A stretch of 56,466 bases of DNA, taken from Planctomycetota bacterium. Its GTDB lineage: Bacteria > Planctomycetota > UBA8742 > UBA2392. Each line of letters opens with the position of its first letter. Position 1 is the stretch's first letter. The translations under genes and the position numbers were made by a program. Below are positions 11,664 through 56,464 of this stretch, piece by piece. The stretch lies in the NCBI GenBank assembly GCA_020848275.1, contig JADLAK010000067.1:1-56466 (forward strand), written 5' to 3'. Below the pieces are notes generated by a model that worked only from the letters and a program-made list of their open reading frames with translations, was not told the DNA's origin and searched no databases.

Positions 11664-11728
11664 AGTTTGGAGAGATGGAGAGTCGGAGAAAAGCACTGTT
11701 GCGATCTCTCCAACTCTCAAACGCTCCA
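11651..11728. repeat. word-type hairpin C2
   Basis: The left arm repeats GGAGAGA and GGAGAGT words (TTTGGAGAGATGGAGAGTC). The right arm is GATCTCTCCAACTCTCAAAC. It overlaps the last codons of the helicase gene and ends 18 bp before the next start. Confidence 0.6.
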
Positions 11729-17424: not shown

Positions 17425-17440
17425 GGCTTACTCCGTTTTT

Positions 17441-17519
17441 CGTGTCTCGTGCTACGTGTTACGTGCTTCGGATTTCCCTGCGCGCCGTCGTATCCCGTAA
17501 CACGAAGCACGTAGCACGT
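17441..17519. repeat. word-type hairpin C3 between rpoA and rplQ
   Basis: The left arm is CGTGCTACGTGTTACGTGC with TTCG. The right arm CGTAACACGAAGCACGTAG plus CACG is its complement. The arms are built of (T)ACGTG words. Confidence 0.7.
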
Positions 17520-27930: not shown

Positions 27931-27933
27931 GTT

Positions 27934-28053
27934 TGAGTCCGGGGTCCTGCGTCCTGAGTCCGGGGTCAAAACCCCGTCAATTCAAGTTGCCTTCCGCCCG
28001 CCCTTTCGCTTCTTTCCTTATCGACTCCGGACTCCGGACACCGGACTCCGGAC
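27934..28053. repeat. word-type hairpin C4 between rplN and rplX
   Basis: The left arm is GAGTCCGGGGTCCTGCGTCC then TGAGTCCGGGGT. The right arm is GGACTCCGGACACCGGACTC then CGGAC. Repeated (G)GACTCCGG words pair across about 50 bp. Confidence 0.7.
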
Positions 28054-35006: not shown

Positions 35007-37139
35007 CTACTTGCGGCGTTGCGGGCCCGCGCGCTCCGTCATGATCTTTTCCTTGATGTGCGGCGGCGTCTTCTCGTAGCGATAGGGCTCCATCGAGTAG
35101 TTCGCGCGGCCCTGGCTCAGGCCGCGGATGGCCTGGACGTAGCCGAACATTTCCGACAGCGGCGCAACCGCCTGGATGATGCGGATGTCGTTGTCGGGCT
35201 CCATGCCCTCGATGCGCGCGCGGCGCGAGTTGAGGTCGCCGACGATCGGGCCGACGAACTCTTCAGGCACGCGCACTTCCACCTTCATCACGGGCTCGAG
35301 AATATCCGTGCCGACTTCGTCCAGCAGCGTGCGGAACGCAATGCGCGCCGCGTCGCGGTAGGCGAAGTCCTTGGAGTCAACGTCGTGATAGCTGCCGTCG
35401 TACACCGCGGCCTTGAAGCCCATGACAGGATAGTTGGCCTTGCCGCCCGAGAGCGCCGTGTCGCGCACGCCTTCCTCGACGTTCTTGATGAACTGGCGCG
35501 GAATGCTGCCGCCGACGGTGTCATCCTCGAACTCGACCTGGTCCCACTTGTCGTCGCCCAGCATCTCCCAGCGAATCTTGCAATGGCCGTACGAGCCCGC
35601 GCCGCCTGACTGCTTCTTGTGCAGGCCTTCGGTTTCGACGGGCTGGCCGACCTTCAGCGCCGGCAGTTCGCGGTATGCAACGCGCGGCTGGCCAACCACG
35701 GCCTCGACGCGGAACTCGTTGAGAATGCGCGAGCGGATGATGTCGAGGTGGAGTTCGCCCATGCCTGAAATGACGGTCTGCTGGGTTTCCGCATCGAGCT
35801 TAACCTTGAACGTCGGGTCGTCCTTCATCATCTTCTGCAGCGCGTACGAGAGTTTTTCGCGGTCCGCGTTGGTCTTGGGCTCGATCGACATCGAGATAAC
35901 CGTCGCGGGGAACGTGATGGCGCCAAGCACCAGCGGCCTGTCTTCATTACATAGCGTGTCGCCGGTGACGGTGTTGCCGAGGCCGACCGCGGCAACGATG
36001 TCGCCGGCAATGGCCGTGGGAAGCACTTCACGCTCGTTGGCGAACATGCGGAACAAACGCGTGACGCGCTCGCGCCGCTTGATGCGCGCGTTGTACAGCG
36101 TAGCACCCTGCTCAAGCGTGCCGGAATAAATGCGCAGGTACGTGAGGTCACCGTGTTCGTCGGTCACGGTCTTGAACGCCATGAGCGCCAGCGGGCCCTT
36201 GGGGTCGCAAGTCAGCTTGACGATCTCGGGATTGTCGGGATCCTTGGGGTCCTTCGCCTCGACCGGCGGCATGTCAAGCGGGCTGGGCAGATACCACACC
36301 ACCGCGTTAATCATGTCCTGCACAGCCTTGTAGCGATAAGCGCTGCCGCAAACCACGGGCACAAGCTTGAAGCTGATGGCGCCTTTGCGCAGCGCAGCGC
36401 GGATCATCTCCGGCGTCACCTTCTCCATCTTGTCTTCAATGACAAGCTCGGCGATCGCGTCATCAACGTCGCCGCACTTTTCAATCATGTGCTGGCGCGC
36501 GAATTGCGCGTCCTCAAGCATGTCGGCGGGGATGGGATGCACGACGACTTCCTTGCCGTCCTGTCCCTCAAACGAATGCGCCTTCATGTCGATCAGGTCG
36601 ATGACGCCCTTGAACTCGACTTCTTCGCCCCACGGAAGCTGCACCGGCACCGGGTTGGTGCCCAGGCGCTTGATCATGGAGTCGACGGACTTTTTGAAGC
36701 TCGCGCCGATCTTGTCCATCTTGTTGATGAACGCGATGCGCGGGACCTTGTACTTGTTGGCCTGGCGCCAGACGGTTTCGGACTGCGCCTCGACGCCTTC
36801 CTTGCCGTCGAACACGACCACAGCGCCGTCGAGCACGCGCAAGCTGCGCTCGACCTCGGCCGTGAAATCCACGTGCCCGGGAGTGTCGATCAGGTTAATG
36901 CCGTGCTTGACCTTGGAGATCGGGTCGTCCCAGAAAGTCGAGACGGCGGCGCTCACGATGGTGATGCCGCGTTCACGTTCTTCCTTCAGGTAATCGGTGA
37001 CGGTGGTGCCGTCGTCGATGTCGCCGGGCTTGTGGATCATGCCCGTGTAGAACAACACGCGTTCGGTCGTCGTCGTCTTGCCGGCGTCAATGTGCGCGCA
37101 AATTCCGATGTTGCGCCAATACTTAAGGTCGATCGCCAT
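35007..37139 (-). CDS. fusA: elongation factor G
   Basis: This 710-residue translocase GTPase has G1 [11 protein letters not shown] (16-26), switch [10 protein letters not shown] (about 85-92) and G4 NKMDKIG (about 139-145). Domain IV shows [16 protein letters not shown] and domain [28 protein letters not shown]. The ending shows [21 protein letters not shown] precedes ATG 37139. It is close to classical FusA rather than the paralogue involved in recycling. The 269-bp leader to rpsG has its own promoter-like sequence. Confidence 0.98.
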
Positions 37140-37358
37140 CTCAAATCTCTCCGTGCCACCGTCCCCAAAACTATGCGGGCCGACTCCCTTGTTTCAGGCG
37201 GTCGGCCCGGACGCCCATTAGCGTCCGCCTCGCGCCTGAAACTTGCCTGACTCGACTGAATGAGTCACGCAGTCTTTCAGTGCTCGCCTCCCGCCAGCAT
37301 CCGGGAAGCCTGTATTCATCCCTTTGTACTTCCACCCGCCTTTATCAACGGGGCGCAA

Positions 37359-37386
37359 AGTGTAACGGCCCGCCTGAGGGTGTCAA
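37359..37386 (-). promoter_or_regulatory. candidate promoter of fusA
   Basis: The minus strand has TTGACA, a 16-bp spacer, then TACACT, about 220 bp before fusA. The -35 consensus is perfect. The hexamer lies in the loop of an inverted repeat (37366-37394). Confidence 0.62.
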
Positions 37387-37394
37387 GCGGGCCG
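37366..37394. promoter_or_regulatory. perfect inverted repeat around the fusA -35 region
   Basis: CGGCCCGC and GCGGGCCG (8 bp each) flank a 13-bp centre that contains the -35 hexamer. It could be the rpsG terminator stem without a T-tract, or an operator. The position 15 bp past the rpsG stop allows either. Confidence 0.5.
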
Positions 37395-37408
37395 CTGAAG
37401 ACTCATCT

Positions 37409-37882
37409 CTACCATGCAAAGTGCGCAAAGGCCTTGTTCGCGTCCGCCATGCGGTGCGTCTCTTCACGCTTCTTGACCGCCGCACCTTCGCGTTTGTACG
37501 CGTCGCCGAGTTCTTCGGCCAGGCGAATCGACATTGGCTTGCCCTTGCGCGCGCGCGCGGCCTGGATCAGCCAGCGCACGGCCAGCGCCTGCTGGCGCTT
37601 CTTGTTGACTTCCATCGGGACCTGGTAAGTCGCGCCGCCGACGCGCTTGGAGCGCACTTCGACGACGGGGCGGCAGTTGTTCAGCGCCTCGTTGAAAACT
37701 TCAACCGGGTCTTTGTCCGGCACCTTCTTCTTCAATTGGTCCAGCGCGTCATACACGATGTTTTGTGCGACCGTCTTCTTGCCCTGGTACATGATGCAGT
37801 TGATGAATTTGCTCAGCAGCTTGTTGGCATGCGCAGGGTCAGGCTTGAGAAAGCGTTCTGTCGACTTGTAGTTACGCGGCAT
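37409..37882 (-). CDS. rpsG: 30S ribosomal protein S7
   Basis: This 157-residue S7 nucleates the 30S head. It begins MPRNYKSTERFLKPDPAHAN, then LLSKFINCIMYQGKKTVAQN and VEVRSKRVGGATYQVPMEVN, and ends ADANKAFAHFAW. The length is normal and there are no tails. It is separated from rpsL by 310 bp that include a terminator, a word-type hairpin and its own promoter. Confidence 0.98.
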   Translation of the reverse strand: MPRNYKSTERFLKPDPAHANKLLSKFINCIMYQGKKTVAQNIVYDALDQLKKKVPDKDPVEVFNEALNNCRPVVEVRSKRVGGATYQVPMEVNKKRQQALAVRWLIQAARARKGKPMSIRLAEELGDAYKREGAAVKKREETHRMADANKAFAHFAW

Positions 37883-37961
37883 TCGCTCGATCTCCTATCG
37901 GGGCGTTGGCCCCAAACCCCTTGGGCTTCGGCCTCTGCGGCCTTTCGCTCAAGGGGGCGGA

Positions 37962-37989
37962 AAGATAGCAACGCGCGTCGAAGCGTCAA
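37962..37989 (-). promoter_or_regulatory. candidate promoter of rpsG
   Basis: The minus strand has TTGACG, a 16-bp spacer, then TATCTT followed by TCCGCCCCC. The GCCCGCTTGAC context before the -35 is shared with the fusA promoter, and TATCTTTCC with the tRNA-tuf promoter. About 80 bp before rpsG. Confidence 0.62.
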
Positions 37990-38030
37990 GCGGGCGAAAC
38001 CGGAATGTTCGGTGAATGTTAGTAATGAGG

Positions 38031-38115
38031 GTTCAGGTGCAGGTTCAGGTCCAGGTCAAGAAAAAGCACGCACGACAATTTCTGTTTTTCTGAACCTGAA
38101 CCTTGATCTGAACCT
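38031..38115. repeat. word-type hairpin C5 between rpsL and rpsG
   Basis: The left arm is GTTCAGGTGCAGGTTCAGGT then CCAGGTCAAGAA. The right arm is TTTCTGAACCTGAACCTTGA then TCTGAACC. (T)CAGGT words pair with ACCTGA words. Confidence 0.7.
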
Positions 38116-38117
38116 CG

Positions 38118-38153
38118 CAAAAGAAAACGACCCCCGAAAATTCGGAGGTCGTT
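38118..38153 (-). terminator. intrinsic terminator of rpsL
   Basis: On the minus strand a stem AACGACCTCCGAA with loop TT and the complementary arm (one G/T variation) is followed by TTTCTTTTGC. It lies 40 bp past the rpsL stop. A clear stem with a T-tract. Confidence 0.85.
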
Positions 38154-38192
38154 CAACACTCTCAATCCAAAAACCACATTCTCAATTCAAAC

Positions 38193-38564
38193 CTACTTGC
38201 CGCGCTTGGCGCCGTACTTCGAGCGGCTCTGCTTGCGGCCATCAACGCCCTGGCAGTCGAGCGCGCCGCGCACGATGTGGTAGCGCACGCCGGGAAGGTC
38301 GCGCACGCGACCGCCGCGGATCAACACAATGTTGTGTTCCTGCAGGTTGTGGCCCTCGCCCGGGATGTAGGCGGTGACTTCACGCTGGTTGGAAAGGCGC
38401 ACACGCGCGATCTTGCGCAGCGCCGAGTTCGGCTTCTTGGGCGTCGTGGTCTTGACCTGCAGGCATACGCCGCGCTTGTACTGGCAGGCGTCGAGCGCAG
38501 GACTCTTGCTCTTGGAAACCATCTTGCGGCGGGGCCGCTTGCAAAGCTGGTTCATCGTCGGCAC
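38193..38564 (-). CDS. rpsL: 30S ribosomal protein S12
   Basis: This 123-residue S12 of the decoding centre reads (M)[20 protein letters not shown], then [40 protein letters not shown] and [16 protein letters not shown] choose GTG 38564: the conserved (V/M)PTxNQL follows it and GGAG lies 9 bases upstream. An ATG 15 bases earlier overlaps that Shine-Dalgarno and adds five unconserved residues. The Lys residues linked to streptomycin response appear wild type. Confidence 0.96.
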
Positions 38565-38594
38565 GTCGGTGTTCTCCAAATCAGAAGGGCCGAG

Positions 38595-38621
38595 AGTTTA
38601 CTAATCGGCCGGGGATTTCAA
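38595..38621 (-). promoter_or_regulatory. weak candidate promoter of rpsL
   Basis: The minus strand has TTGAAA, a 15-bp spacer, then TAAACT followed by CTCGGCCC. The spacer is short. It lies about 30 bp before rpsL, which would leave a very short leader. Confidence 0.38.
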
Positions 38622-38630
38622 GAGCAGGCG

Positions 38631-38707
38631 CACGCTAATTTTGGATTTTGGATTGGCGCTACCGCGCCCCGCGCGTCCTGAATCCACATTCGACAATCCA
38701 CAATTGA
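38631..38707. repeat. word-type hairpin C6 between rpoC and rpsL
   Basis: The left arm is CTAATTTTGGATTTTGGATT. The right arm is CTGAATCCACATTCGACAAT then CCACAATTG. Its CGCACGCTAATTTTGGATTT and GGATTGGCGCTACCGCGCC blocks are identical to those of C9 (49173-49250). Confidence 0.75.
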
Positions 38708-38736
38708 ACCGGGACAGACGTTCTGTCTGTCCCGGT
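38708..38736 (-). terminator. hairpin after rpoC
   Basis: Perfect 12-bp stem ACCGGGACAGAC/GTCTGTCCCGGT with a 5-nt loop, 20 bp past the rpoC stop on the minus strand. No T-tract follows, so it may be an RNA-stabilising or processing hairpin rather than a terminator. Confidence 0.55.
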
Positions 38737-38755
38737 CGAACAATCCCAATCAACA

Positions 38756-42973
<4,218 letters not shown>

Positions 42974-43046
42974 GTGTCGTCTCTTCCTTCGTTAGCGGCC
43001 AATTTTGTTGGCCGAGTTATTTTTCTTCGGTTACTCCGCGTCATTT

Positions 43047-43144
43047 GGGGTTCTAGGTTCTAAGTGTTAGGTTTTAGGCAAAGCCCGCGATCGGCTGCGC
43101 CAATACCCATTCAACCCAGTTCCTAAAACCCAATACCTAGAACC
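43047..43144. repeat. word-type hairpin C7 between rpoB and rpoC
   Basis: The left arm is GGGGTTCTAGGTTCTAAGTG then TTAGGTTTTAGG. The right arm is CCTAAAACCCAATACCTAGA then ACC. (C)TAGGTT words pair with AACC(T)AG words around a 45-bp centre. Confidence 0.75.
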
Positions 43145-43148
43145 TGCT

Positions 43149-46901
<3,753 letters not shown>

Positions 46902-47098
46902 GGACATTCCTTAGTTAACTCACCTGAAGGGCGGAATTATTCGCCCGTGGTCACCGGCATAAACACAATCGGGGCATGCCGGCGGGGGCCGGCAGCCCTG
47001 AGTTTTTGTCACGTTTCCTGAGGTCCCGGCGAGCGAGAGCCGACCCTGTTCGGCCCTACGCGCGCCATGCTGGTTGCAGGTACGCGAAAGAAGATTCC

Positions 47099-47122
47099 GC
47101 GGGGGCGCCAAAGCGCCCCCGC
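47099..47122 (-). terminator. attenuator hairpin between rplL and rpoB
   Basis: Perfect 10-bp stem GCGGGGGCGC/GCGCCCCCGC with a TTTG loop, 10 bp past the rplL stop. On the minus strand it is followed by GGAATCTTCTTT. Partial terminators at this site are known from other bacteria and lower rpoBC relative to rplJL. Confidence 0.7.
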
Positions 47123-47132
47123 GTGTATGACA

Positions 47133-47531
47133 CTACTTCAGTTCGACCTTGGCGCCAGACTCTTCCAGCTTCTTCTTTAGAGCCTCGGCCTCGGCCTGCG
47201 GCAGGCCTTCCTTGACCGGCTTGGGCGCGCCCTCGACCAGCGCCTTGGCTTCCGCCAGGCCCAGGCCCGTGGCTTCGCGAACCACCTTGATCACCGGGAT
47301 CTTCTTGTCCGGGGCCGAGATGGAAACGAGCACCACGTTGAACTCGGTCTTGGCTTCCGCAGCCGCCGGGGCAGCAGCGCCCCCGCCGGCCGCCGGGGCG
47401 GCAGCAGCCGCAACCGCCTGGGCCTTGACCTCGAACTTTTCCTCGAACGCCTTCACGAAATCGCGAACCTCGAGGAGATTCCACGTCGAAACTTCATCCA
47501 GAACCTTGTTGATCTTTTCGGCTACCGCCAT
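47133..47531 (-). CDS. rplL: 50S ribosomal protein L7/L12
   Basis: This 132-residue stalk protein has the N-terminal dimerisation part ([30 protein letters not shown]), an Ala/Gly/Pro hinge (about 38-60) and the factor-binding C-terminal domain ([38 protein letters not shown]). AGGAGAAGG lies just before ATG 47531. The Ala/Gly hinge is slightly long. 263 bp separate it from rplJ, much more than usual, and hold a word-type hairpin. Confidence 0.98.
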
Positions 47532-47576
47532 GACCTTCTCCTGATTTAGAGCCGGCCTCAATTTTGAGCCGGATCC

Positions 47577-47722
47577 TTCGATTGTGGATTTTGGATTGTG
47601 GATTCCGGAGTGCCGCGGCTGTTGCCGCACGCATCCCGCATCCGCACGTCCAATCCCTCTTCAGTTCCTTGGACTTGCGATTCTGGCACACTCCAAAATC
47701 GAAAATCCAAAATCCAAAATGT
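47577..47722. repeat. word-type hairpin C8 between rplJ and rplL
   Basis: The left arm is CTTCGATTGTGGATTTTGGA then TTGTGGATTCC. The right arm is CCAAAATCGAAAATCCAAAA then TCCAAAATG. GGATT(TT) words pair with AATCC words across a centre of about 90 bp. Confidence 0.72.
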
Positions 47723-47794
47723 TCGAACTTCCCGTGTCCCTTCGCGGCCACACCCGACTATGAACAGGCAACCCGCGACCACTGCGAAAATCGG

Positions 47795-48349
47795 CTACTT
47801 CTTCTCCAGCTTGTTGGCCAGCGCATTGAACCCGTAGGCAATACGCGCATAACCGGCCTGCAGCGTCGCCGCCATCTTCTGCGGCAGCGCCAGGAAGTCG
47901 CCCGCCAACGTGGACAGCAGTTCCTTGCGGCCGGGCAGCGTCGCCGAGGCCTCAACCTGCTTCACATCGAGGACGTCGTGGCCCATCTGGCCCGCTTTGA
48001 CCTTGATGGTGTCCTTGTTTTCCTTCATCCACTTGGTGGTGAACTTGGCGATATCCACGGTGCCGTCTCCGCCGAAAAGCACGGCAGTCGGGCCGCGGAA
48101 AATCTGCTGCTTGCGCGGCAGCTTCTTGTCGTGCTCGATCAGCGGCTTGAGGCCGTGGGCCTTGAGCGCCGTGGACGCGATGCGGTTCTTGACGACTTCC
48201 ATCGTCAGCTTGGCCTTGCGCAACTCGCTGCGAAACTGCGCCATCTTCAGGCTGTTGAGGCCCTGGTAGTCGATGATGACGACGTTGTCGAGCTTGCTCA
48301 TGCCCCGCGTAATCTGGTCAACGAGCATCTGGTTCAGTTTGTTAGGCAT
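47795..48349 (-). CDS. rplJ: 50S ribosomal protein L10
   Basis: This 184-residue L10 anchors the L7/L12 stalk. It begins MPNKLNQMLVDQITRGMSKL and has VVIDYQGLNSLKMAQFRSEL-RKAKLTMEVVKNRIA and the stalk-helix region AATLQAGYARIAYGFNALANKLE at the end. The length is normal. It starts 48 bp after rplA. Confidence 0.97.
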   Translation of the reverse strand: MPNKLNQMLVDQITRGMSKLDNVVIIDYQGLNSLKMAQFRSELRKAKLTMEVVKNRIASTALKAHGLKPLIEHDKKLPRKQQIFRGPTAVLFGGDGTVDIAKFTTKWMKENKDTIKVKAGQMGHDVLDVKQVEASATLPGRKELLSTLAGDFLALPQKMAATLQAGYARIAYGFNALANKLEKK

Positions 48350-48397
48350 AGCTTGCTTTCTCTGCGAAACTGTTTGGTCTGTATCCCGAAATTTGCG

Positions 48398-49108
48398 TTA
48401 GCCCACCGCGACGTTGGACGCTTCAAAGGCGACGTTCAGGCCGGGGCTCATTGTGGCGGACAGGCTGACGCGCTCGATGAAATGCCCCTTCACTGTCGAC
48501 GGCCGCAGGCCCTGCACGTGCGACAGCAGGTGCTTGAGGTTGTCCGACAGCTTGTCGTTGGCGAAGCTGCGCTTGCCAATAGGCACGTGCAGGTTGCCGC
48601 CCGCGTCGGTGCGGTACTCGACCTTGCCGGCCACGAATTCTTTCACCGCCGCGCCGACGTCTTCGGTCACCGTGCCGGCCTTGGGCGTGGGCATCTTGCC
48701 CTGGGGGCCGAGAACCTTACCCAGCTTGCCCACGTGGCGCATCTGGTTGGGGTGGGCAATGGCGATATCGAAGTCCATCCAGCCGCCTTCGATCTTCTTG
48801 GCAAGTTCCGCCGAGCCGACTTCGATGGCGCCCGCGGCCTTGGCCTTCTCCGCGTCGCCGCCTTCGGCAAAGCAGATCACCTTCATGGTCTTGCCCAGGC
48901 CGTGCGGCAGCGAAACCGCGCCGCGCAGGTTCTGTTCGGCCTTCTTGGGATCCACGTTGAGTTTGATCGCAACGCGGACCGTCTCGTCGAATTTGGTTTT
49001 CTTGAAATCGGCAAGGCGCGAAACAGCTTCTTCCACCGAATACTTCTTCAGCGGGTCAACGCCCTTGGCGGCTTCCTTGTAGCGCTTGCTGCGTACACGT
49101 TCCTTCAT
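48398..49108 (-). CDS. rplA: 50S ribosomal protein L1
   Basis: This 236-residue L1 forms the E-site stalk and often represses its own operon. Signatures are SKRYKEAAKGVDPLKKYSVEEAV, the FDETVRVAIKLNVDPKKAEQNLRGAVSLPHGLGKTMKV block, MRHVGKLGKVLGPQGKMPTPKAGTV and the end FIERVSLSATMSPGLNV. ATG 49108 fits the family; upstream codons enter repeat DNA. The 144-bp gap to rplK holds word-type hairpin C9. Confidence 0.98.
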   Translation of the reverse strand: MKERVRSKRYKEAAKGVDPLKKYSVEEAVSRLADFKKTKFDETVRVAIKLNVDPKKAEQNLRGAVSLPHGLGKTMKVICFAEGGDAEKAKAAGAIEVGSAELAKKIEGGWMDFDIAIAHPNQMRHVGKLGKVLGPQGKMPTPKAGTVTEDVGAAVKEFVAGKVEYRTDAGGNLHVPIGKRSFANDKLSDNLKHLLSHVQGLRPSTVKGHFIERVSLSATMSPGLNVAFEASNVAVG

Positions 49109-49172
49109 GTCTTTCTCCGGTGGCAGTGTTTTTAGCTGTCTGCTGCCTTCCAAGTCGCGCGTCGACAGTTCA

Positions 49173-49250
49173 CGCACGCTAATTTTGGATTTTCGATTCT
49201 GGATTGGCGCTACCGCGCCACCTTGAATCGAAATCTAAAATCTAAAATTC
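49173..49250. repeat. word-type hairpin C9 between rplK and rplA
   Basis: The left arm is CTAATTTTGGATTTTCGATT then CTGGATT. The right arm is GAATCGAAATCTAAAATCTA then AAATT. It shares two long identical blocks with C6. Confidence 0.75.
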
Positions 49251-49252
49251 CC

Positions 49253-49678
49253 CTACCCTTCGACCGTCACGCCCATGGAGCGCGCGGTGCCCGCAATCAT
49301 GCGGCACGCCGCATCGAGGCTGCCGGCGTTGAGGTCCTTTTCCTTGGCCTTGGCGATTTCTTCCAGCGCCTTGCGGCCAATCTTGCCGACCTTTTCGCGG
49401 CCCGGGGTCTTGGACCCTTTTTCGAGTTTAATGGCGTTGCGAATCAGCACGCTCGCTGGAGGAGACTTAATCTCGAGCTCCATCGACTTGTCTTTAAAGA
49501 TGCTGATCACAACGGGCAGGATCAACCCCATGCGGTCGCGGGTTTTGTCGTTGAACTGTTTAACAAACGCCGCAATGTTCACGCCGTGCTGGCCGAGCGC
49601 CGGGCCAACCGGCGGCGCGGGAGTAGCTTGGCCGCCGGGGCACTGCAGCTTGACCTTGGTCAGAAGTTCTTTAGCCAT
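49253..49678 (-). CDS. rplK: 50S ribosomal protein L11
   Basis: This 141-residue L11 of the GTPase-associated centre begins MAKELLTKVKLQCPGGQATP. It has the APPVGPALGQHGVNIAAFVKQFN loop, SIFKDKSMELEIKSPPASVL, and ends MIAGTARSMGVTVEG. The length is normal. It follows nusG by 87 bp with a G-family hairpin in between. Confidence 0.99.
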   Translation of the reverse strand: MAKELLTKVKLQCPGGQATPAPPVGPALGQHGVNIAAFVKQFNDKTRDRMGLILPVVISIFKDKSMELEIKSPPASVLIRNAIKLEKGSKTPGREKVGKIGRKALEEIAKAKEKDLNAGSLDAACRMIAGTARSMGVTVEG

Positions 49679-49733
49679 GACTGATAATTCCTTGCCGCCA
49701 AAATTCAGTTCAGTTCCTGTCGCACTTCAAAGG

Positions 49734-49758
49734 GCCCGCTCGCTCACGCTCGGGGCTC
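49734..49758 (-). repeat. stop-adjacent hairpin G4
   Basis: The minus strand reads GAGCCCCGAGCGTGAGCGAG then CGGGC. Begins 7 nt after the nusG stop. Confidence 0.65.
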
Positions 49759-49765
49759 TGACGCA

Positions 49766-50347
49766 TTAACTTACGGGTTCCACCTGCCAGTATTCCAGCT
49801 CGACGGGCGTCGGGCGGCCGAAGATGGTCACGACCACCTTCACGCGGCCCTGTGCCGGGTTGACGTCCTCCACGGTGCCCTCGAAGCCGTCAAAGGGACC
49901 GTCCTTGATCTTGACCGCGTCGGCCTTCTTGAACTCGATCTTGACCACGGGCTCTTCGCCCTCGGGCTTGGGCTCGGAAATCTTGAGAATTTTGCGCACG
50001 TCGTCCTGGCTCATGGGCACAGGCTTGTCGCGGTCGCCCACGAAATCGCCCACGCCGGGCGTCTCGCGAATCAGGTGGTAGGCGTCGCCGTTTAGCGTGT
50101 AGCGCTGGTCGGCGTGATCGGACGTGTCCTCGATGGTATCGATCTCGAGGTACAGGTAGCCGGGGTAGACCTTGCGCGAACGTTCGCGCTTCTTTCCGCC
50201 CTTGATTTCCTGCACCGTCTCCGTCGGGATCACCATACGACCGAACAGTTGCTCAAGGCCCTTGGCCTTGACGCGCTTCTGCAGGTTCTCCTGGATCTTC
50301 TCTTCCCGGGAACTCTGCACCCTCAGCACGTACCACATGAGCGCCAT
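49766..50347 (-). CDS. nusG: transcription termination/antitermination protein NusG
   Basis: This protein of about 193 residues has an N-terminal NGN domain ([20 protein letters not shown], then [11 protein letters not shown] and the [20 protein letters not shown] end) and a C-terminal KOW domain ([52 protein letters not shown]). I favour ATG 50347 ([10 protein letters not shown]) because GGAAGG lies 8 bases upstream; an in-frame ATG at 50374 would add nine residues. It links RNA polymerase to Rho or to S10. It lies directly after secE. Confidence 0.96.
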
Positions 50348-50378
50348 CTGTTCTGCCTTCCGTTCGTCCATCATTCGG

Positions 50379-50942
50379 TTACTTCGTCGCTTCTTCCGGC
50401 GTCAGCGCCGGGCCCTTGTCCGCTGTCGGTTGCTGGTCGAGCCTCAACACCATGCTCACAATCCGGCCCCAGCCCACGCTCTTCCAGCTCTGGCCCTGCA
50501 GCACACCCACGCCAAGGCTGAATGTCAGGTCGTACAAAAACACGATGATCGCAAACCACATCACAAAGTAGAGCACAACCACCGTCGCGCGGCGCACGTC
50601 ATTTTTGGGCGCCCAGCGCACCTTCTTGAGCTCCGCTTCCGTCGCCACCAGCAGGTCGACGTATTTCGGGCGATTCAGCCACCAGCGCACGCCAAGCAGC
50701 CCCACGACGAAAACCGCCAGCGCAATAATCAAACTGGGCGACAGCCAGTCCGTCATGCTGCTGCCGCCGCGCAGCAGCGATTCGCCAAAGAACGGCTCGA
50801 TGCCAAGCAGGCGGTCAAAACGCGTGTTGCCGTACTCGAAGATCGCGTAGCACATCCACACCAGCGCAAGCAATAGCATGGCCGACGCAAAGAACCGGGT
50901 CTTGCGTCCCGCCCCGCGCCTGTATGTGTCAAACATGGCCAT
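50379..50942 (-). CDS. secE: preprotein translocase subunit SecE, three-span form
   Basis: The C-terminal 100 residues contain the conserved SecE amphipathic helix and last membrane span (VATEAELKKVRWAPKNDVRRATVVVLYFVMWFAIIVFLYDL). The 187-residue protein has two further hydrophobic segments (about 20-37 and 67-85), so it is a three-span SecE like that of enterobacteria rather than the one-span minimal type. A unique loop (NTRFDRLLGIEPFFGESLLR) joins spans 1 and 2. ATG 50942 has AGGAG 6-7 bases upstream, inside repeat D2. It precedes nusG by about 31 bp. Confidence 0.94.
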   Translation of the reverse strand: MAMFDTYRRGAGRKTRFFASAMLLLALVWMCYAIFEYGNTRFDRLLGIEPFFGESLLRGGSSMTDWLSPSLIIALAVFVVGLLGVRWWLNRPKYVDLLVATEAELKKVRWAPKNDVRRATVVVLYFVMWFAIIVFLYDLTFSLGVGVLQGQSWKSVGWGRIVSMVLRLDQQPTADKGPALTPEEATK

Positions 50943-50952
50943 GCCTGCTCCT

Positions 50953-51024
50953 GGTGGCGCGGGCGCCTCGCCCGCGACCCTATTCTTAACCGCACTGCCC
51001 GCGGCCGAGGCGGCCGCGCCACAC
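50953..51024. repeat. GC-rich inverted repeat (family D, copy 2)
   Basis: Left arm GTGGCGCGGGCGCCTCGCCC, right arm GCGGCCGAGGCGGCCGCGCC then ACA. Same arms as 12-83. Lies between tRNA-Trp and secE. Confidence 0.6.
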
Positions 51025-51100
51025 TGGCACGGCGGGAGGGAATCGAACCCCCAACCTGCGGTTTTGGAAACCGCTGCTCTGCCAGTTGAGCTACCGCCGT
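51025..51100 (-). tRNA. tRNA-Trp (CCA)
   Basis: Full cloverleaf: acceptor ACGGCGG/CCGCCGT, D stem GCTC/GAGC, anticodon stem GCGGT/ACCGC with loop TTCCAAA (anticodon CCA) and T stem GGGGG/CCCTC. Discriminator G, with the CCA end encoded. It lies between rpmG and secE, a common place for this tRNA. Confidence 0.97.
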
Positions 51101-51103
51101 ATA

Positions 51104-51174
51104 ATCCGGTTATCGGAGACCGGCTTTCGGTTGTCGGTATTACCGACCGCTGACCACCGAATACCGACCGCCGG
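51104..51174. repeat. word-type hairpin C10 between rpmG and tRNA-Trp
   Basis: The left arm is CCGGTTATCGGAGACCGGCT then TTCGGTTGTCGGTA. The right arm is TACCGACCGCTGACCACCGA then ATACCGACCG. CGGTnnTCGG words pair with CCGA words. Confidence 0.68.
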
Positions 51175-51175
51175 C

Positions 51176-51343
51176 TTACTTCTTCTTTTCCTTGTGCAAC
51201 GTGTGCTTCTTCAATTTCGAGTTGTACTTCTTCAGCTCGATCTTCTTGATGTTCTGGCCCTTGACCCGCTTCTGCGTGCGATACACGCGCATGCCGGTCT
51301 CGGTGCACTCAAGGAACACGTATTCTCTGTTATCACCGGCCAT
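51176..51343 (-). CDS. rpmG: 50S ribosomal protein L33 (zinc-less form)
   Basis: A 55-residue frame read directly from the strand: MAGDNREYVFLECTETGMRV, then YRTQKRVKGQNIKKIELKKY and a lysine-rich end with KKHTLHKEKKK. The VFLECTE.G, RLELKKY-like IELKKY and KHTLHKE motifs identify L33. Only Cys13 remains of the usual two CxxC pairs, so it cannot bind zinc in the normal way. It lies between tuf and tRNA-Trp/secE, matching the widespread tuf-rpmG-secE order. Confidence 0.93.
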   Translation of the reverse strand: MAGDNREYVFLECTETGMRVYRTQKRVKGQNIKKIELKKYNSKLKKHTLHKEKKK

Positions 51344-51365
51344 CTGAGCTCATCCCTTCAAACGC

Positions 51366-51396
51366 GCGGCGGCCTTCGACCAGCTCAGGCCGCCGC
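51366..51396 (-). terminator. GC-rich hairpin between tuf and rpmG
   Basis: Nine-bp stem GCGGCGGCC/GGCCGCCGC with a 13-nt loop, 15 bp after the tuf stop. No T-tract. It may be an attenuator or RNA-processing hairpin. Confidence 0.45.
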
Positions 51397-51410
51397 AACT
51401 GGGCAACTTT

Positions 51411-52610
51411 TTACTTCAGGATCTTCACAACTTTGCCTGCGCCGACGGTGCGGCCGCCTTCGCGGATAGCGAAGTTGGCGCCCTCGTCCATGGCGATCGG
51501 CTTGCCAAGCTTCACCGAGAGCTGCACGGTGTCGCCGGGCATGACCATTTCCGCGCCGCCCATAAGGTCGGCGGTGCCCGTAACGTCCGTCGTGCGGAAG
51601 TAGAACTGCGGGCGATAACCGGTGAAGAACGGCGTGTGGCGGCCGCCTTCTTCCTTATTGAGGATGTAGCACTGGCACTCGAAGTCGGTGTGGGGCTTGA
51701 TCGTGCCGGGCTTGGCAATAACCATGCCGCGTTCGATCTGCGCCTTTTCAACACCGCGCAGCAGCACGCCGACGTTGTCGCCGGCCATGCCGCTATCGAG
51801 CGTCTTCTGGAACATTTCGACGCCGGTGATGGTGCTCTGCATGGGCAACTCGCGCAGGCCGACGATCTCGACGTTGTCGCCGACCTTGATCAGGCCGCGT
51901 TCGATACGGCCCGTGGCGACGGTGCCGCGGCCCGAAATCGAGAACACGTCTTCGACGCTGAGCATAAACGGCTTGTCGACTTCGCGCACGGGCTCGGGGA
52001 TGTGGCTGTCGAGCACGTTGAGCAGGTCCTGGATGCACTTGGTCTTGCCCGCGTCGCTGGGGTTTTCCAGCGCCGCCTTGGCGTTGCCGCGGATGATCGG
52101 GATCTTGTCGCCGGGGAACTTGTACTTGTTGAGCAACTCACGCACTTCGAGCTCAACCAGCTCAAGTAATTCCGCGTCGTCGACGAGGTCGACCTTGTTG
52201 AGGAATACGACGAGCGCCGGGACGTTCACCTGGCGGGCGAGCAGGACGTGCTCGCGCGTTTGGGGCATCGGGCCGGTGTCGGCGGCGACCACCAGGATCG
52301 CGCCGTCCATCTGCGCGGCGCCGGTGATCATGTTCTTGATGAAGTCGGCGTGTCCGGGGCAGTCGACGTGCGCGTAGTGGCGCTTTTCCGTCTCGTACTC
52401 AACGTGCGCCGCCGCGATCGTCACGGTCTTGTTGGCGTCACGGACGGTGCCGCCCTTGGTGATTTCCGCGTAGGTCTTGGCCTTCGACAGGCCCTTGGCC
52501 GCGCAATAGGCAACCAGTGCGGCGGTCAAAGTGGACTTGCCGTGGTCAATGTGTCCGATGGTGCCGACGTTTACGTGCGGCTTCTTACGTTGAAAGGTTT
52601 CGCGCGCCAT
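51411..52610 (-). CDS. tuf: elongation factor Tu
   Basis: This 399-residue GTPase delivers aminoacyl-tRNA. G1 is GHIDHGKST (19-27), switch II is [12 protein letters not shown] (about 83-94), G4 is NKVD (about 138-141), and domains II/III follow with [13 protein letters not shown] and [11 protein letters not shown] at the end. The length and sequence are normal. It is preceded by four tRNA genes in the same order as the E. coli thrU-tyrU-glyT-thrT-tufB operon. Confidence 0.99.
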
Positions 52611-52680
52611 TGCTTACGTACTCCTGAGTGATTTCGTTTTTTTATTCAGTCCTGTTACCGGTTTCGTCTACAGCAAAGTC

Positions 52681-52755
<75 letters not shown>

Positions 52756-52769
52756 GAATTCTTACGCTT

Positions 52770-52858
52770 TCGCTCCTCGGCATCCTGCCTCGTCGCGACT
52801 TCACGGCGGCATTCCCTTCGGGCCTGCCGCCGGCTCGCCATCCCTGGCTCGTTCTTCC
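52770..52858. repeat. structured dispersed repeat family B, copy 4
   Basis: GGCATCCTGCC hairpin, CGTCGCGACTTCACG box, CGGCGGC/GCCGCCG stem and CTCGCCATCCCTGGCTCG end. Lies between tRNA-Gly and tRNA-Thr(GGU), widening that gap to 160 bp. Confidence 0.7.
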
Positions 52859-52915
52859 TTCCGGGGTGGCCCCACCCCTTCTTCCTTTATCCAGCCCCGT
52901 CGGGCCACAGCATTC

Positions 52916-52990
52916 TGGAGCGGGCGATGGGATTCGAACCCACGACATTCTGCTTGGAAGGCAGAGGCTCTACCACTGAGCTACACCCGC
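52916..52990 (-). tRNA. tRNA-Gly (UCC)
   Basis: Acceptor GCGGGTG/CGCCCGC with one G-U pair, anticodon stem TCTGC/GCAGA with loop CTTCCAA (anticodon TCC), T stem GTGGG/CCCAT. CCA encoded. Confidence 0.97.
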
Positions 52991-53026
52991 ATTTCCCGCT
53001 AATCCTACACGCCCGGGGCGTGAATC

Positions 53027-53112
53027 TGGTGGGCAGAGAAGGATTCGAACCTTCGAAGGCATAAGCCACCTGATTTACAGTCAGGCCCCTTTGGCCGCTT
53101 GGGTATCTGCCC
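53027..53112 (-). tRNA. tRNA-Tyr (GUA)
   Basis: Acceptor GGGCAGA/TCTGCCC, anticodon stem CCTGA/TCAGG with loop CTGTAAA (anticodon GTA), and a long variable arm as expected for a class II bacterial tRNA-Tyr. Discriminator A, CCA encoded. Confidence 0.97.
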
Positions 53113-53159
53113 TAAAACCCTTCTTTTCTCCCTCCGCGCCTTGCCCCGCATGCTCAATT

Positions 53160-53234
53160 TGGAGCCGGCGGCGAGAATCGAACTCGCAACCACCGGTTTA
53201 CAAAACCGGTGCTCTGCCATTGAGCTACGCCGGC
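53160..53234 (-). tRNA. tRNA-Thr (UGU)
   Basis: Acceptor GCCGGCG/CGCCGGC, anticodon stem CCGGT/ACCGG with loop TTTGTAA (anticodon TGT), T stem GCGAG/CTCGC. CCA encoded. First gene of the tRNA-tuf operon. Confidence 0.97.
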
Positions 53235-53261
53235 GATGGCGCGCCGAAATTTGGAGCGGGA

Positions 53262-53289
53262 AAGATAACAATAGTCTTTGGGGGCGCAA
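53262..53289 (-). promoter_or_regulatory. candidate promoter of the tRNA-tuf operon
   Basis: The minus strand has TTGCGC, a 16-bp spacer, then TATCTT followed by TCCCGCTCCAAATTT. It lies about 25 bp before the first tRNA. The downstream sequence matches that of the S10-operon promoter. Confidence 0.65.
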
Positions 53290-53354
53290 TGGCCCGTCGC
53301 AAGTTTCTTGCCAATGGGCGTTTACACCCGCCTTCGGAACCCTTTTACCCGCGA

Positions 53355-53427
53355 GGCGTCAGGCTTCAGGCCTCAGGCGACAGTTTTTCGCCTTGACTGC
53401 AGCCTGGTGCCTGCCGCCTGTCGCCTC
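53355..53427. repeat. word-type hairpin C11 between divergent operons
   Basis: The left arm is GGCGTCAGGCTTCAGGCCTC then AGGCGACAG. The right arm is CCTGGTGCCTGCCGCCTGTC then GCC. CAGGC words pair with GCCTG words. Confidence 0.68.
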
Positions 53428-53455
53428 TTTCGCTGCGGGTGTTAAAACCTCAGCC

Positions 53456-53980
53456 ATGACCCTGCTGATCCTTAAAGCCTGCCGCTGGTTGTACCGCACG
53501 CTCAACAGCGACGCGAGGCCCTGGCAGATCGGGCTTGCGGTCGTGCTCGGCGCGCTCGCGGGCCTTCTGCCGCTGGGGCTGGGCACCGTTGCCGCCTTCC
53601 TCCTGATTCTTCTCGTCAACGTGCACTTCTCCACGGCGTTCTTCAGCTTCGCCGTCTTCCAGCTTCTCTCGCTAACGCTGCAAACCGCGTTGATTCGCCC
53701 CATCGGCGAACGGACGCTCGACCTCGCGCCGCAAGCGCTGGTCGTCGGCGCCGCCAGGACGCCCATCGTCTCGCTGTTTCGCTTCGATTACTTCGACGTC
53801 GCGGGCGGTATTGCCCTGTGGCTCATTATCGCCGCGCCGCTGATGGCGGGCGTGACACTTTTCTATGCGCGCTACCAGGCCTGGATGAAGGCGAAACTCG
53901 CGAACTCGCGCATCATGAAGTTGCTCAGCCAGACCTGGCTCTTCAAAGGACTCCGCTTTGTCTTCATCGGCCATGGATAA
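53456..53980 (+). CDS. TIGR03546-like membrane protein
   Basis: This 174-residue protein has about three hydrophobic segments (WQIGLAVVLGALAGLLPLGL, then FLLILLVNVHFSTAFFSFAV, and IALWLIIAAPLMAGVTLFYA). The sequence and especially the pairing with the next gene resemble the two-gene set modelled as TIGR03546/TIGR03545, described as occurring only in bacteria with outer membranes (from memory). ATG 53456 starts MTLLILKACRWLYRTLNSD. The stop TAA overlaps the next gene's start by 8 bp. The function is unknown; a role in the inner membrane with its partner is likely. Confidence 0.8.
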   Translation: MTLLILKACRWLYRTLNSDARPWQIGLAVVLGALAGLLPLGLGTVAAFLLILLVNVHFSTAFFSFAVFQLLSLTLQTALIRPIGERTLDLAPQALVVGAARTPIVSLFRFDYFDVAGGIALWLIIAAPLMAGVTLFYARYQAWMKAKLANSRIMKLLSQTWLFKGLRFVFIGHG

Positions 53981-56153
53981 TACGCCGCCAAAACGCGTGG
54001 GCTTTCTGCGGCTAAAAGCCGTGATCGGGTTGCCGTTGGTCATCGGCATCGCGCTTCTGGTTTACAACTTCACCATCGACGGCGCGGTAAAGGACTTTCT
54101 GGTCGCCCAGGGAGCCGGTATGGCGGGTTACGCGGGCAAGGCCAGCGTCGACGAAGTCAAATTCTCGATCTTCGGGCCCAAGCTCTACGTCAAGAATCTC
54201 CATATCTACCAGGCGCCGCCCGGCGGGCCGGAACACACCGTGCTGCGCGCCGGCGAAGCCAACCTCGACCTCGAACTTCTGCCGTTGCTCGAGCGCCGGC
54301 TGGTCGTGCGCGAAATTCGCGCAACGAAGATCGAGTTCCAGCGCCCGCTCGCCGCAAGCGAAACTGGCGCGCCTCCCCCGCCGCCGCCGCAAACCGAAAA
54401 CAAGGACGCCAACGATTACATCAAGCAAGTCGAGGGGTTCTTCAAAAGCGATGAATTCGCCGAAATCCGCAAGTGGCTCGAGAAAATCCGCGCGTCGCAG
54501 CAACAGGCGCCCGTGGGGCAGGGCGATGTTAATGTTAAACCCGCGCCGCAGCAGCCCACGCTGCTGGACCCGGGACCCGCGGGCCGCGCAGCCTATGTGA
54601 CCAGGGCGCTGGCCGACGACAAGGCGCCGCCCGCGGTCGTGGTCATGCGCGCGGCGCTGGAGCAGCTCGACTTCAACTTCGGCAAACCCGGCGACAAGAC
54701 ACTCGCGAGCAGCATCACGGACGTCAAGCTCGAGGCCAAGGAGCTTAGCAGCGACCCCGTGAGTTACGGCCGGCCGATAACCATGAGCGCGGGCGGCAAC
54801 CTCGGCGGAGACGCAGGCAAACGCCTCGATCTCGACCTGGTCGTGCGCTTTGACCCCAAACAGCTCATCAAGATCGAACAGGTGCGCGGCAACGCGAGCT
54901 ACGCGCAGGTTCCACTGGCGGGCATTGTTGACACGTCAATATTCGGCGACTACCTGCGCGACCTGCGCATGAGCGTCAGCTATTACGCGCCCGAGCACGC
55001 CGAACTTGCCGGGCGCGCGTGCATTTCGCTTTCCGGCAATCTGACGCCGCCGGGCTCGCTCGACACGCAAGGCTCGCGACTTGCAGTGAACATCTGGCTG
55101 GGCGGCTACAAGGGCACCGACGCCGCGGCGGCGCTGATGCCCAGCGGCATCGGCTTTTCCGTGGAACGCGTGCCGCTTGACGGTCTCCTTAGACAGGCGG
55201 GCGGCTCTCCGGCGGCCGTTGAGCCCGGCGCGACGATCAGCTTCGGCACCTGCGACGCCAACGGCCGCACCGGCACACCCGAAGCAGCGTTCACCTGGCA
55301 CGACGGCATGAATTGCCGCTTGCGGCTGAGTATCGACAAGCTGGCGATCAAGCCCAAGGCCGGCAACGACAAGATTCTTGGCATCTCGTCCAAGGACTTC
55401 TGCAGCGCCTTCAACACCTTCATGACCGCACAGGGCAAGGACGCGACGTTCCAGCTCAGTTTGTTCGACGCAAAGGGACGCTTTGCGCCGGCGCTGGAAA
55501 AACCTGGCACGCGCGGCCTGATCGACGGCATTGTCGCCGTGCTGGCCTACACCGGCGCGGAGGCGAACAAGGCATTCGACCTGCCGTTCACGCTCTCGGA
55601 CAAAGCGGTCATTAAATGCGCGAGCATCAATGCCGACGGCAGCGTGCGCACGATGTTCGGGCCCGACAGCATGCGCGGCGACCTCGGCGATTTGCGCATC
55701 CGGCTGCTTGTCAAAGACATCTACGCCGCCAAGAAAGCCGGCCGCAACGAAGTGATGGGCATTCCCGCCGAGCACTTCACGTTTGCGTGGAATGCGATGG
55801 TCGCGACCTTTCCCGCCGAGGGCTTTCCGTTTGTGCTGCGGCTGTTCAACGACAAAGGCGTTTTCGAGCCGACCGTCGTCAGCCCGACGCCGACGGAACT
55901 CACGACAATGCTTGGCGCCGCCGTCGGGATATCGTTGTTCGAGAAAAACTTTGGGCAGCTCGCTACAAAGTTTGGCCCGCAGTTTGCGCAGTTCCAAAAG
56001 GGCGGGCTGTCGGCGGCGCCGGATATCGCCAAGGCGCTGACGGGCGGCAAGGTCATCGACCCGAAAACGCTGCCCGTGCCGATTCCGAAGGAAATCCCGA
56101 AGGAGCTACCCAAGGAAGCTCCGAAGCTGCCCAATATCAAACTGCCGTGGTAG
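53973..56153 (+). CDS. TIGR03545-like / AsmA-like envelope protein
   Basis: This 726-residue protein has one N-terminal membrane span (about 14-34, LKAVIGLPLVIGIALLVYNF) and a long exported part. The first domain (FSIFGPKLYVKNLHIYQAPPG, LDLELLPLLERRLVVREI and RATKIEFQRPL) has the short β-repeat style of AsmA/YhdP-type proteins. A Pro-rich linker (PPPPPPQ) and an Ala/Gln-rich helical stretch follow, then β-rich repeats up to a Pro/Lys-rich end (PIPKEIPKELPKEAPKLPN). ATG 53973 overlaps the upstream stop. By analogy with AsmA relatives a lipid-handling or envelope-assembly role is possible, but this is inference. Confidence 0.78.
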   Translation: MDNTPPKRVGFLRLKAVIGLPLVIGIALLVYNFTIDGAVKDFLVAQGAGMAGYAGKASVDEVKFSIFGPKLYVKNLHIYQAPPGGPEHTVLRAGEANLDLELLPLLERRLVVREIRATKIEFQRPLAASETGAPPPPPPQTENKDANDYIKQVEGFFKSDEFAEIRKWLEKIRASQQQAPVGQGDVNVKPAPQQPTLLDPGPAGRAAYVTRALADDKAPPAVVVMRAALEQLDFNFGKPGDKTLASSITDVKLEAKELSSDPVSYGRPITMSAGGNLGGDAGKRLDLDLVVRFDPKQLIKIEQVRGNASYAQVPLAGIVDTSIFGDYLRDLRMSVSYYAPEHAELAGRACISLSGNLTPPGSLDTQGSRLAVNIWLGGYKGTDAAAALMPSGIGFSVERVPLDGLLRQAGGSPAAVEPGATISFGTCDANGRTGTPEAAFTWHDGMNCRLRLSIDKLAIKPKAGNDKILGISSKDFCSAFNTFMTAQGKDATFQLSLFDAKGRFAPALEKPGTRGLIDGIVAVLAYTGAEANKAFDLPFTLSDKAVIKCASINADGSVRTMFGPDSMRGDLGDLRIRLLVKDIYAAKKAGRNEVMGIPAEHFTFAWNAMVATFPAEGFPFVLRLFNDKGVFEPTVVSPTPTELTTMLGAAVGISLFEKNFGQLATKFGPQFAQFQKGGLSAAPDIAKALTGGKVIDPKTLPVPIPKEIPKELPKEAPKLPNIKLPW

Positions 56154-56178: not shown

Positions 56179-56348
56179 CTTAGAGCACTTTCAAGATTAC
56201 CGTGCCGGTTTCTGCTTGCGGCGAGCATCGCATCTCTGCATCGCGCTCGCTCAGCGTGGCTTCCAGCCACGCCGTCGCTCGCGCTTCTTGATCTGCTCGC
56301 TCGGCGCAGCGCATAAACTCGGCACACTAACCTTGAAAAAGCTCTAAG
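56179..56348. repeat. 170-bp element with terminal inverted repeats
   Basis: The left end starts CTTAGAGCACTTTCAAGATT. The right end, read in reverse complement, starts CTTAGAGCTTTTTCAAGGTT. The similarity continues through GTGCCGnnTTT for about 45 bp. The centre contains a GCGTGGCTTCCAGCCACGC hairpin. It has no open frame, so it looks like a non-autonomous MITE-type element. Confidence 0.6.
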
Positions 56349-56371: not shown

Positions 56372-56464
56372 GTGGCGCGGACATTCCTGTCCGCGGTGGC
56401 GAGCTTTGCGAGCCACAATTCGACCGGCTACGCCGGTCGGGCGGACAAGAATGTCCGCCCCACA
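56372..56464. repeat. GTGGCGCGGACATTCC...GAATGTCCGCCCCAC inverted repeat
   Basis: Termini GTGGCGCGGACATTCCTGTC and GACAAGAATGTCCGCCCCAC are complementary apart from a few changes. Inside are GGACATTCCTGTCC and GACCGGCTACGCCGGTC hairpins. A dispersed, cassette-like repeat resembling family D. Confidence 0.55.

Follow-up and report, generated by a model that had tools for sequence, protein, structure and literature searches.

Described Systems with Paired Short-Word Arrays

Paired arrays of short words have so far been reported from single genera and from one intron, and they have been read as G-quadruplexes, as regulator sites, or as an intron stem. Geobacter metallireducens carries tandem octamers and heptamers paired on opposite strands, for which a role as sites of global regulators (IHF/HU) was proposed (PMC2700814). 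These arrays resemble the hairpins described here in being intergenic pairs of tandem short words at variable distance that fall into several classes (24, 21, and 8 pairs), but they comprise few words in one genome and come with a regulator-site proposal, and the passages devoted to them contain no polarity rule, cross-phylum vocabulary, or word-replacement test (PMC2700814). The passages on the GGGAATC heptamers of Xanthomonas describe 70 and 75 convergent pairs, i.e., mostly intergenic inverted repeats with the G-rich word pointing inward, in contrast to the present case a single word discussed as a G-quadruplex, with few pairs in Nostoc PCC 7120 (PMC4692102). Degenerate heptamers also build the arms of the P6b stem in the Nostoc tRNA-Leu intron, and the whole stem is described as having been swapped several times (TDNGATT for NNTGAGT); this is one site within a group I intron and involves two words (PMC4476775). 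Foldback transposons, as portrayed in the account of Tetris from Drosophila, are noncoding and share long inverted arms with tandem repeats around a variable middle, whereas Tetris is eukaryotic, has far longer arms and units, and shows target duplications of 8 to 10 bp in complete copies (PMC4079207). Passages in other reports cover TAACTGA direct repeats in Beggiatoaceae (PMC4679880) and hairpin elements in sponge mitochondria (PMC2800124).

In the planctomycete-like genome considered here, many words share the same architecture, the same inward polarity, and the same kind of site; the word GGATT recurs in genomes of two phyla, and words take each other's place within a gap without any sign of selection on RNA. 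One- and few-word precedents are known; what is new is a class of many words that can replace each other in situ. No description of such a class was found in the literature searched, which left out most subscription papers and therefore gives weak evidence of absence. What produces degenerate hairpins of repeats in bacteria becomes a directly testable question, and the results caution against taking such hairpins for terminators.

Word Hairpins of the Window

The window, which is the whole stretch of 56,466 nucleotides that was analyzed, is contig 67 of a genome of 4,411,489 bases in 111 contigs. The RNA polymerase beta gene of this genome comes nearest to those of Planctomycetota MAGs. An earlier note had named eleven spots in its spacers at which both arms of an imperfect hairpin are built from degenerate copies of one short word. 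At each place, the interval was searched for its best self-complementary stem, and this stem and the repetition within its arms were compared with 100 dinucleotide-preserving shuffles of the interval; at all 11, none of the 100 shuffles reached both values. Paired degenerate word arrays are present at every one of these spots, and the idea that shuffled sequences might yield them at the same rate, which would have undone the class, is not borne out. The stem alone was reached by 0 of 100 shuffles at ten places and by 4 of 100 at 51104 (5 of 300 in a second run, in which stem and repeats together were reached by 0 of 300); this hairpin and the one at 38631, both with a stem score of 18, are the weakest of the set. 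Under stricter settings, a scan across the window yielded 8 hairpins, compared to a mean of 0.3 in 20 shuffles. Seven of them are among the eleven, and the remaining one (50954-51022) is a pair of REP-like palindromes; the spots at 9378, 38631, 43047, and 51104 lie below the threshold of that scan. The best stems at the 11 places have arms of 19 to 32 nt (about 2.5 to 4.5 word copies) and loops of 11 to 76 nt, which corrects the three to five copies and the centers of 10 to 90 bp given before.

The lead hairpin (43055-43145; like all others, it is given without strand) lies between rpoB and rpoC, at a distance of 3 nt from the rpoB stop codon. Its arms (43055-43078 and 43122-43145) carry the word AGGTTCT / GGTTTTAG, and 0 of 100 shuffles matched it on the stem or on both values. 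The hairpin at 9379-9482 occupies a divergent gap with a word of the CAGTTGT / CGGTNGT type (0 of 100 shuffles), and that at 11662-11725, with the word GGAGAGAT, lies in a gap of 83 nt that measures 0 to 14 nt in four relatives. CGTGNNN at 17441-17518 is found upstream, on the rpoA start side, followed by GTCCGGA at 27937-28053 and the 6-nt word AGGTNC at 38030-38114, where the relatives have equally long gaps without a called word hairpin. GGATTNN builds the weak hairpin at 38637-38705 (stem score, 18; 0 of 100 shuffles), whose loop has GGCGCTACCGCGCC in common with the GATTTTN hairpin at 49181-49249, as well as the hairpin at 47581-47720, which lies in the gap separating the genes of L10 and L7/L12. 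Among relatives, this gap has called GGATT hairpins in G001, G010, and L006 and a GCAG word in G013/G014. The second weak hairpin (51120-51174; word CGGTNGT) lies between the L33 gene (51176-51343) and tRNA-Trp (51025-51100), and the last one (53353-53427) has the word AGGCNNC. Several words are thus present in the window, as the earlier note had it, but they are not private to their loci and recur in genome-wide families. The inward direction of the words in nearly every pair and the fixed core with a variable slot were not mentioned there.

The window also contains REP-like pairs of GC-rich palindromes with the tag GTGG/GTAG (12-83, 50954-51022, and 56372-56463) and, near its end, a long near-palindrome (56179-56348) with arms of 83 to 84 nt, a stem score of 66, and a loop of 3. 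A search against Rfam returned only five tRNAs.

Genome-Wide Occurrence and Placement

A self-written detector, which finds stems by local self-complement alignment and tests the arms for internal repeats, made 104 calls in 800,674 bp (the window and 40 further stretches). The resulting density, about 1 per 10 kb, is inflated, as the stretches all come from contigs with a GGATT array and many of the second 20 were chosen at such matches. According to a self-written gene caller, 88 of the 104 calls lie in gene gaps, 14 lie in genes and, judged by eye, are mostly false calls of high GC content, and 2 lie at edges; the counts of context, skew, and clusters exclude the latter 16, which were retained in the polarity count of hairpin pairs. 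The 88 gap hairpins fall into 27 word clusters, one of which is the REP-like pair at 50954-51022. The same build recurs across these clusters genome-wide, which agrees with the earlier view of one architectural class as opposed to copies of a single element. In a family with a 10-nt word, the outer end TTTAGCC is recurrent by eye. Among the matches listed, many family alignments end close to the hairpin ends, and identity between separate hairpins does not rise above about 85%.

With respect to gene orientation, 65 hairpins lie in co-directional, 18 in divergent, and 5 in convergent gaps, compared to 57.7, 20.4, and 9.9 expected from gap length. In co-directional gaps, the hairpin begins at a median of 4 nt past the stop codon and ends at a median of 21 nt ahead of the following start. 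The gap is thereby taken up except for the stretch before the start of the next gene. The location in gaps of ribosomal and RNA polymerase operons might suggest that operon transcripts use them as terminators, attenuators, or sites of processing, and five hairpins folded as RNA gave z-scores of −3.05 to −5.79. A strong predicted RNA fold is, however, expected of any such inverted repeat. The deficit in convergent gaps and the presence in divergent ones speak against such RNA hairpins, and placement as terminators is not supported. Only one (51106-51123) of 32 terminator-like sites in positions 37000 to 54000 (22.9 expected) falls in a word hairpin. In the sense RNA of 95 hairpins from co-directional gaps (65 from the genome itself and 30 from relatives), there are 2,207 matches, 78 G-U pairs, 77 A-C pairs, and 218 other mismatches. 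As selection on an RNA stem would favor G-U, its equality with A-C gives no sign of such selection, and the proposal in the earlier note of a long degenerate RNA stem under selection is not supported. The hairpins were accordingly not assigned to the intrinsic terminators or RNA stems, and a role as RNA hairpins is given only a small chance.

Polarity of the Words

Neighboring arrays identified by pattern alone, with no hairpin filter, form 49 convergent, 0 divergent, and 3 same-way pairs. Facing tandem arrays of one word on opposite strands, of the kind known from Xanthomonas and Geobacter, are therefore present in this genome. Seven of the nine array patterns yielded pairs, and 101 of 205 arrays have no partner by the strict patterns. 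Called hairpins behave in the same way: among those with similar arms at a score of at least 32, 216 pairs share their polarity and 4 are opposite, with 3 of these 4 due to one hairpin. Looser arm similarity gives 266 versus 12 (score, 28) and 429 versus 60 (score, 20); the 11 opposite pairs at a score of at least 26 trace to three hairpins (L108:14273, L118:2408, and L108:1987). An exception to the polarity is the high-scoring C-rich left arm of a hairpin in G008 (L256:255).

The pattern holds outside this genome as well. Convergent GGATT arrays occur in 23 of 294 Planctomycetota genomes and divergent ones occur in 1 of 294; in the phylum of L070, a MAG labeled Nitrospira japonica, the numbers are 9 and 0 of 148 genomes. 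Backward control patterns that were intended as blanks did match, CCTAA..TTAGG six times in G204 and TTAGG..CCTAA in G026, G123, and G180. Viral contigs contain convergent GGATT pairs in 43 stretches and divergent ones in 46. Of the latter, 31 have a length of 32 bp and nearly all of these represent a single sequence, so that the viral collection is no test of polarity; this 32-bp sequence with divergent GGATT pairs recurs in about 30 viral contig stretches, among them most of L304 to L346. Across the 27 word clusters, the 5′ arm is purine-rich in 21, pyrimidine-rich in 5, and even in 1, with G exceeding C in 19, C exceeding G in 7, and 1 even, which indicates that the polarity rule spans unrelated words.

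Core, Slot, and Relation of the Two Arms

The words combine a fixed core with a variable slot. In strict GGATT arrays, the slot reads GT, TT, or GC in 40 of 42 cases, and CACGAAT arrays show 13 different following triplets among 25. If one word had been amplified locally by slippage and the second arm copied from the first by template switching, slots would be expected to agree best between paired units. Slot identity in paired versus unpaired units of opposite arms is 0.61 versus 0.71 for GGATT, 0.25 versus 0.47 for CACGAAT, 0.55 versus 0.47 for CGTG, and 0.56 versus 0.57 for AGGT, in small samples of 18 to 36 paired letters per word. A hairpin's own partner arm beats other arms of its family in fractions of 0.59 (GGATT), 0.52 (AGGTTCAGG), and 0.51 (CACGAAT) of comparisons in the three largest families; it is preferred in two smaller ones, at 0.73 (CGTG) and 0.80 (GTC), where sub-words may be mixed. 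Judging from these values, the arms resemble each other more through a word used across the genome than through mutual copying. The generating mechanism considered in the earlier note, template switching or amplification of an arm, finds no backing in the two largest of the four words tested for slots, nor does copying from the partner in the three largest families. Some cases do fit local slippage and template switching, such as the perfect mirror arms of an AGTTGAT hairpin in G003 and, by eye, one matched change from G-C to T-A between L005 and L006. The recurrence of the GGATT core in unrelated genomes and the unlike units of two young hairpins in the rpoB-rpoC gap (see below) count against it, and only a small chance is given to this origin.

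Probable Gain, Loss, and Word Replacement among Relatives

Gaps of the window were compared with those of seven family genomes and two MAG loci. At four of seven gaps, the length remaining after subtraction of the hairpin is about that of most hairpin-free relatives: 19 nt versus 14, 0, 0, and 0 at 11664; 29 nt versus 30, 48, 12, 47, and 29 (and 92 and 92) at 17425; 13 nt versus 14, 2, and 2 (and 84, 64, 56, and 56) at 27931; and 6 nt versus 9 to 55 (and 106) at 49178. At 37883, the gaps of relatives measure 210 to 347 nt without a called hairpin and are as long as the 310 nt of the window, and at 42974 and 47532, several relatives hold hairpins themselves. Genome-wide, co-directional gaps with a hairpin have a median of 28 nt besides the hairpin, compared to 67 nt in hairpin-free gaps (83 nt without overlaps).

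The word can differ at one and the same place. L003, whose contig is as long as that of G009, was omitted when words were compared among relatives. The L33-tRNA-Trp gap carries CGGTNGT in the window, AGTTGAT in G003, GTCCCGN in G009, GTTGTCA in G010 and L006, GCGAATG in G013 and G014, and no hairpin in G001. A hairpin seen by eye in the same gap of G008 was dropped, since 157 of 300 shuffles matched it. The rpoB-rpoC gap contains a CGTG hairpin in G013, first read by eye, and a GGGTTTC hairpin in G014. For each of the two, 3 of 300 shuffles equaled the stem, and none of the 300 equaled stem and repeats together. The anchors of this gap are 94.5% and 96.6% identical between the two genomes, which share 92.4% identity over 59.8 kb; both hairpins, although young, are already composed of unlike units. 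No close sibling of either was found in the 16 family genomes, which are 76 to 94% complete, the best matches being 74% over 59 nt and 92% over 25 nt. Further comparisons of G013 with G014 include one G013 hairpin that is missing part of its right arm and another that keeps the right arm while the left has diverged. The expectation that both arms change together consequently stands for most cases, in which they are gained, lost, or reworded jointly in relatives, but one arm alone is conserved in two of six G013/G014 comparisons (one of the six lacking anchors).

Conservation of one gap could point in another direction. The hairpin gap at L004 9155-9321 is 95.9% identical to its counterpart in L034, loop included. 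That exceeds every one of the 15 flanking genes compared (median, 87.2%; maximum, 91.5%) as well as 13 other gaps and could reflect function or recent exchange; the hairpin gaps of L005/L006, at 89.5% and 89.6%, lie at the median. If each word were bound directionally by a nucleoid or regulatory protein, with facing arrays producing a bound DNA structure, such conservation and the constant cores with varying slots would be accounted for, and the pairs of Geobacter metallireducens have been proposed as IHF/HU sites (PMC2700814). The swapping of words at one gap in close relatives, the rpoB-rpoC gap included, speaks against a word-specific link to the neighboring genes, and one genome holds over 20 words, so that protein-binding arrays appear distinctly unlikely.

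Nature of the Elements and Search for an Enzyme

The hairpins are tentatively regarded as small, noncoding DNA elements of the foldback type that are gained as units and can be replaced by a unit of another word, a reading given somewhat less than an even chance. In each element, an unrelated center would be flanked on both sides by arrays of a single short core word that face each other; inverted arms with tandem repeats around a variable middle are indeed what is observed. The element would probably be gained whole in a gene gap and at times be replaced by a hairpin of another word. The core word may be the recognition site of a putative recombination or transposition enzyme, and gaps may be merely a tolerated landing place; the elements would then serve themselves and not the cell. 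The gap preference would need no function, because an insert presumably does the least harm there.

Foldback-type elements are favored by the combination of polarity, unit gain, and mismatch pattern. The inward polarity (49:0, with 3 same-way) extends to genomes of two phyla, words form families, four of seven gaps match in length, words change within one gap, and sense RNA shows no mismatch bias. Moreover, arms are unrelated beyond the word, and in G255 (L218 to L221), a GGATT hairpin is, by eye, nested in a longer dispersed repeat common to four places. On the other side stand the Y1 loci described below, the lack of siblings for the two rpoB-rpoC hairpins, and the ceiling of about 85% identity among the matches listed, unlike recent copies. 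Direct repeats of 5 to 6 nt flank the edges of 6 of 88 hairpins (1.9 expected) with no fixed length or sequence, the relatives' gaps at 37883 are equally long, and the L004/L034 gap is conserved. The missing enzyme, siblings, and target duplications keep confidence in the foldback reading low and leave room for a repeat-writing origin.

REP and REPIN elements are short, tagged, dispersed palindromes of intergenic regions beside a Y1 (RAYT) transposase gene. Dispersed intergenic palindromic elements exist in the genome of the window too, but in contrast to REP palindromes, word hairpins are absent within 300 bp of the Y1 transposase at all 20 loci examined, of 35 in G000 and G008, and membership in the REP/RAYT system was rejected. 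A different inverted repeat, similar to the REP-like pairs of the window, lies within 70 bp of 6 of these 20 genes. Family genomes hold 2 to 28 Y1_Tnp copies, which by eye rise with hairpin density in eight genomes; as the Y1 genes examined are not beside word hairpins, this trend is not used as evidence. Exactly one RVT_1 match is present in 12 of 16 family genomes, hairpin-dense and sparse alike, and there is one in G000, the genome of the window; the RVT_1 profile may miss DRT10. The reverse transcriptase of G001 (L213:1291-2637), the only one examined, is retron-like by PADLOC and NCBIfam, and the single-copy reverse transcriptase was dropped as a lead. The profile searches, which covered Y1_Tnp and RVT_1, found no mobilizing or making enzyme.

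An alternative origin is repeat writing: at a break within a gap where this is tolerated, an enzyme would extend each 3′ end with repeated copies of a short word, and the ends would then be joined. This would give facing arrays of a single word, degenerate from birth and without sibling copies. The polarity corresponds exactly to 3′ ends pointing inward, with the purine-rich 5′ arm in 21 of 27 unrelated clusters, and the lack of siblings in the rpoB-rpoC gap and the unlike slots within and between arms are as expected. An activity of this kind is described in the passages on DRT10 reverse transcriptases, which make tandem-repeat DNA of short words and many motif lengths from an RNA template in a telomerase-like manner; DRT10 differs in being a defense system, and the same passages contain no chromosomal repeat arrays (PMC12632851). 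Against repeat writing, there is no candidate enzyme, given the even distribution of RVT_1 and the retron-like enzyme of G001, the more than 20 words would demand many templates, and the unrelated centers are left unexplained; it is considered unlikely, with a real if minor share of the probability. Doubtful to a still greater degree is the broader proposal that several phyla carry an unrecognized repeat-writing system acting at breaks in gaps, with multiple templates, hundreds of hairpins per genome, and a cross-phylum vocabulary.

Occurrence on Other Contigs and Plasmids

In L198 (G224; 3,059 bases), ten detector calls are crowded into 3 kb, and their words number four or more (GGAGACA, GGAACTC, GATTTCG, and ATTTGGTGA); two of the calls look GC-rich and not word-like. 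When plasmids were queried with single words, two words gave weak or no matches and a third gave 30 records. L200 and L201, from Persicobacter plasmids (Bacteroidota), show TTTTAGCCACGAAT arrays that resemble a planctomycete word and have no called partner arm, with weak BLAST matches (E, 0.6 to 2). The cyanobacterial plasmid stretches L202 to L205 (200 kb) contain 3 detector calls, compared to 0 in 12 shuffles.
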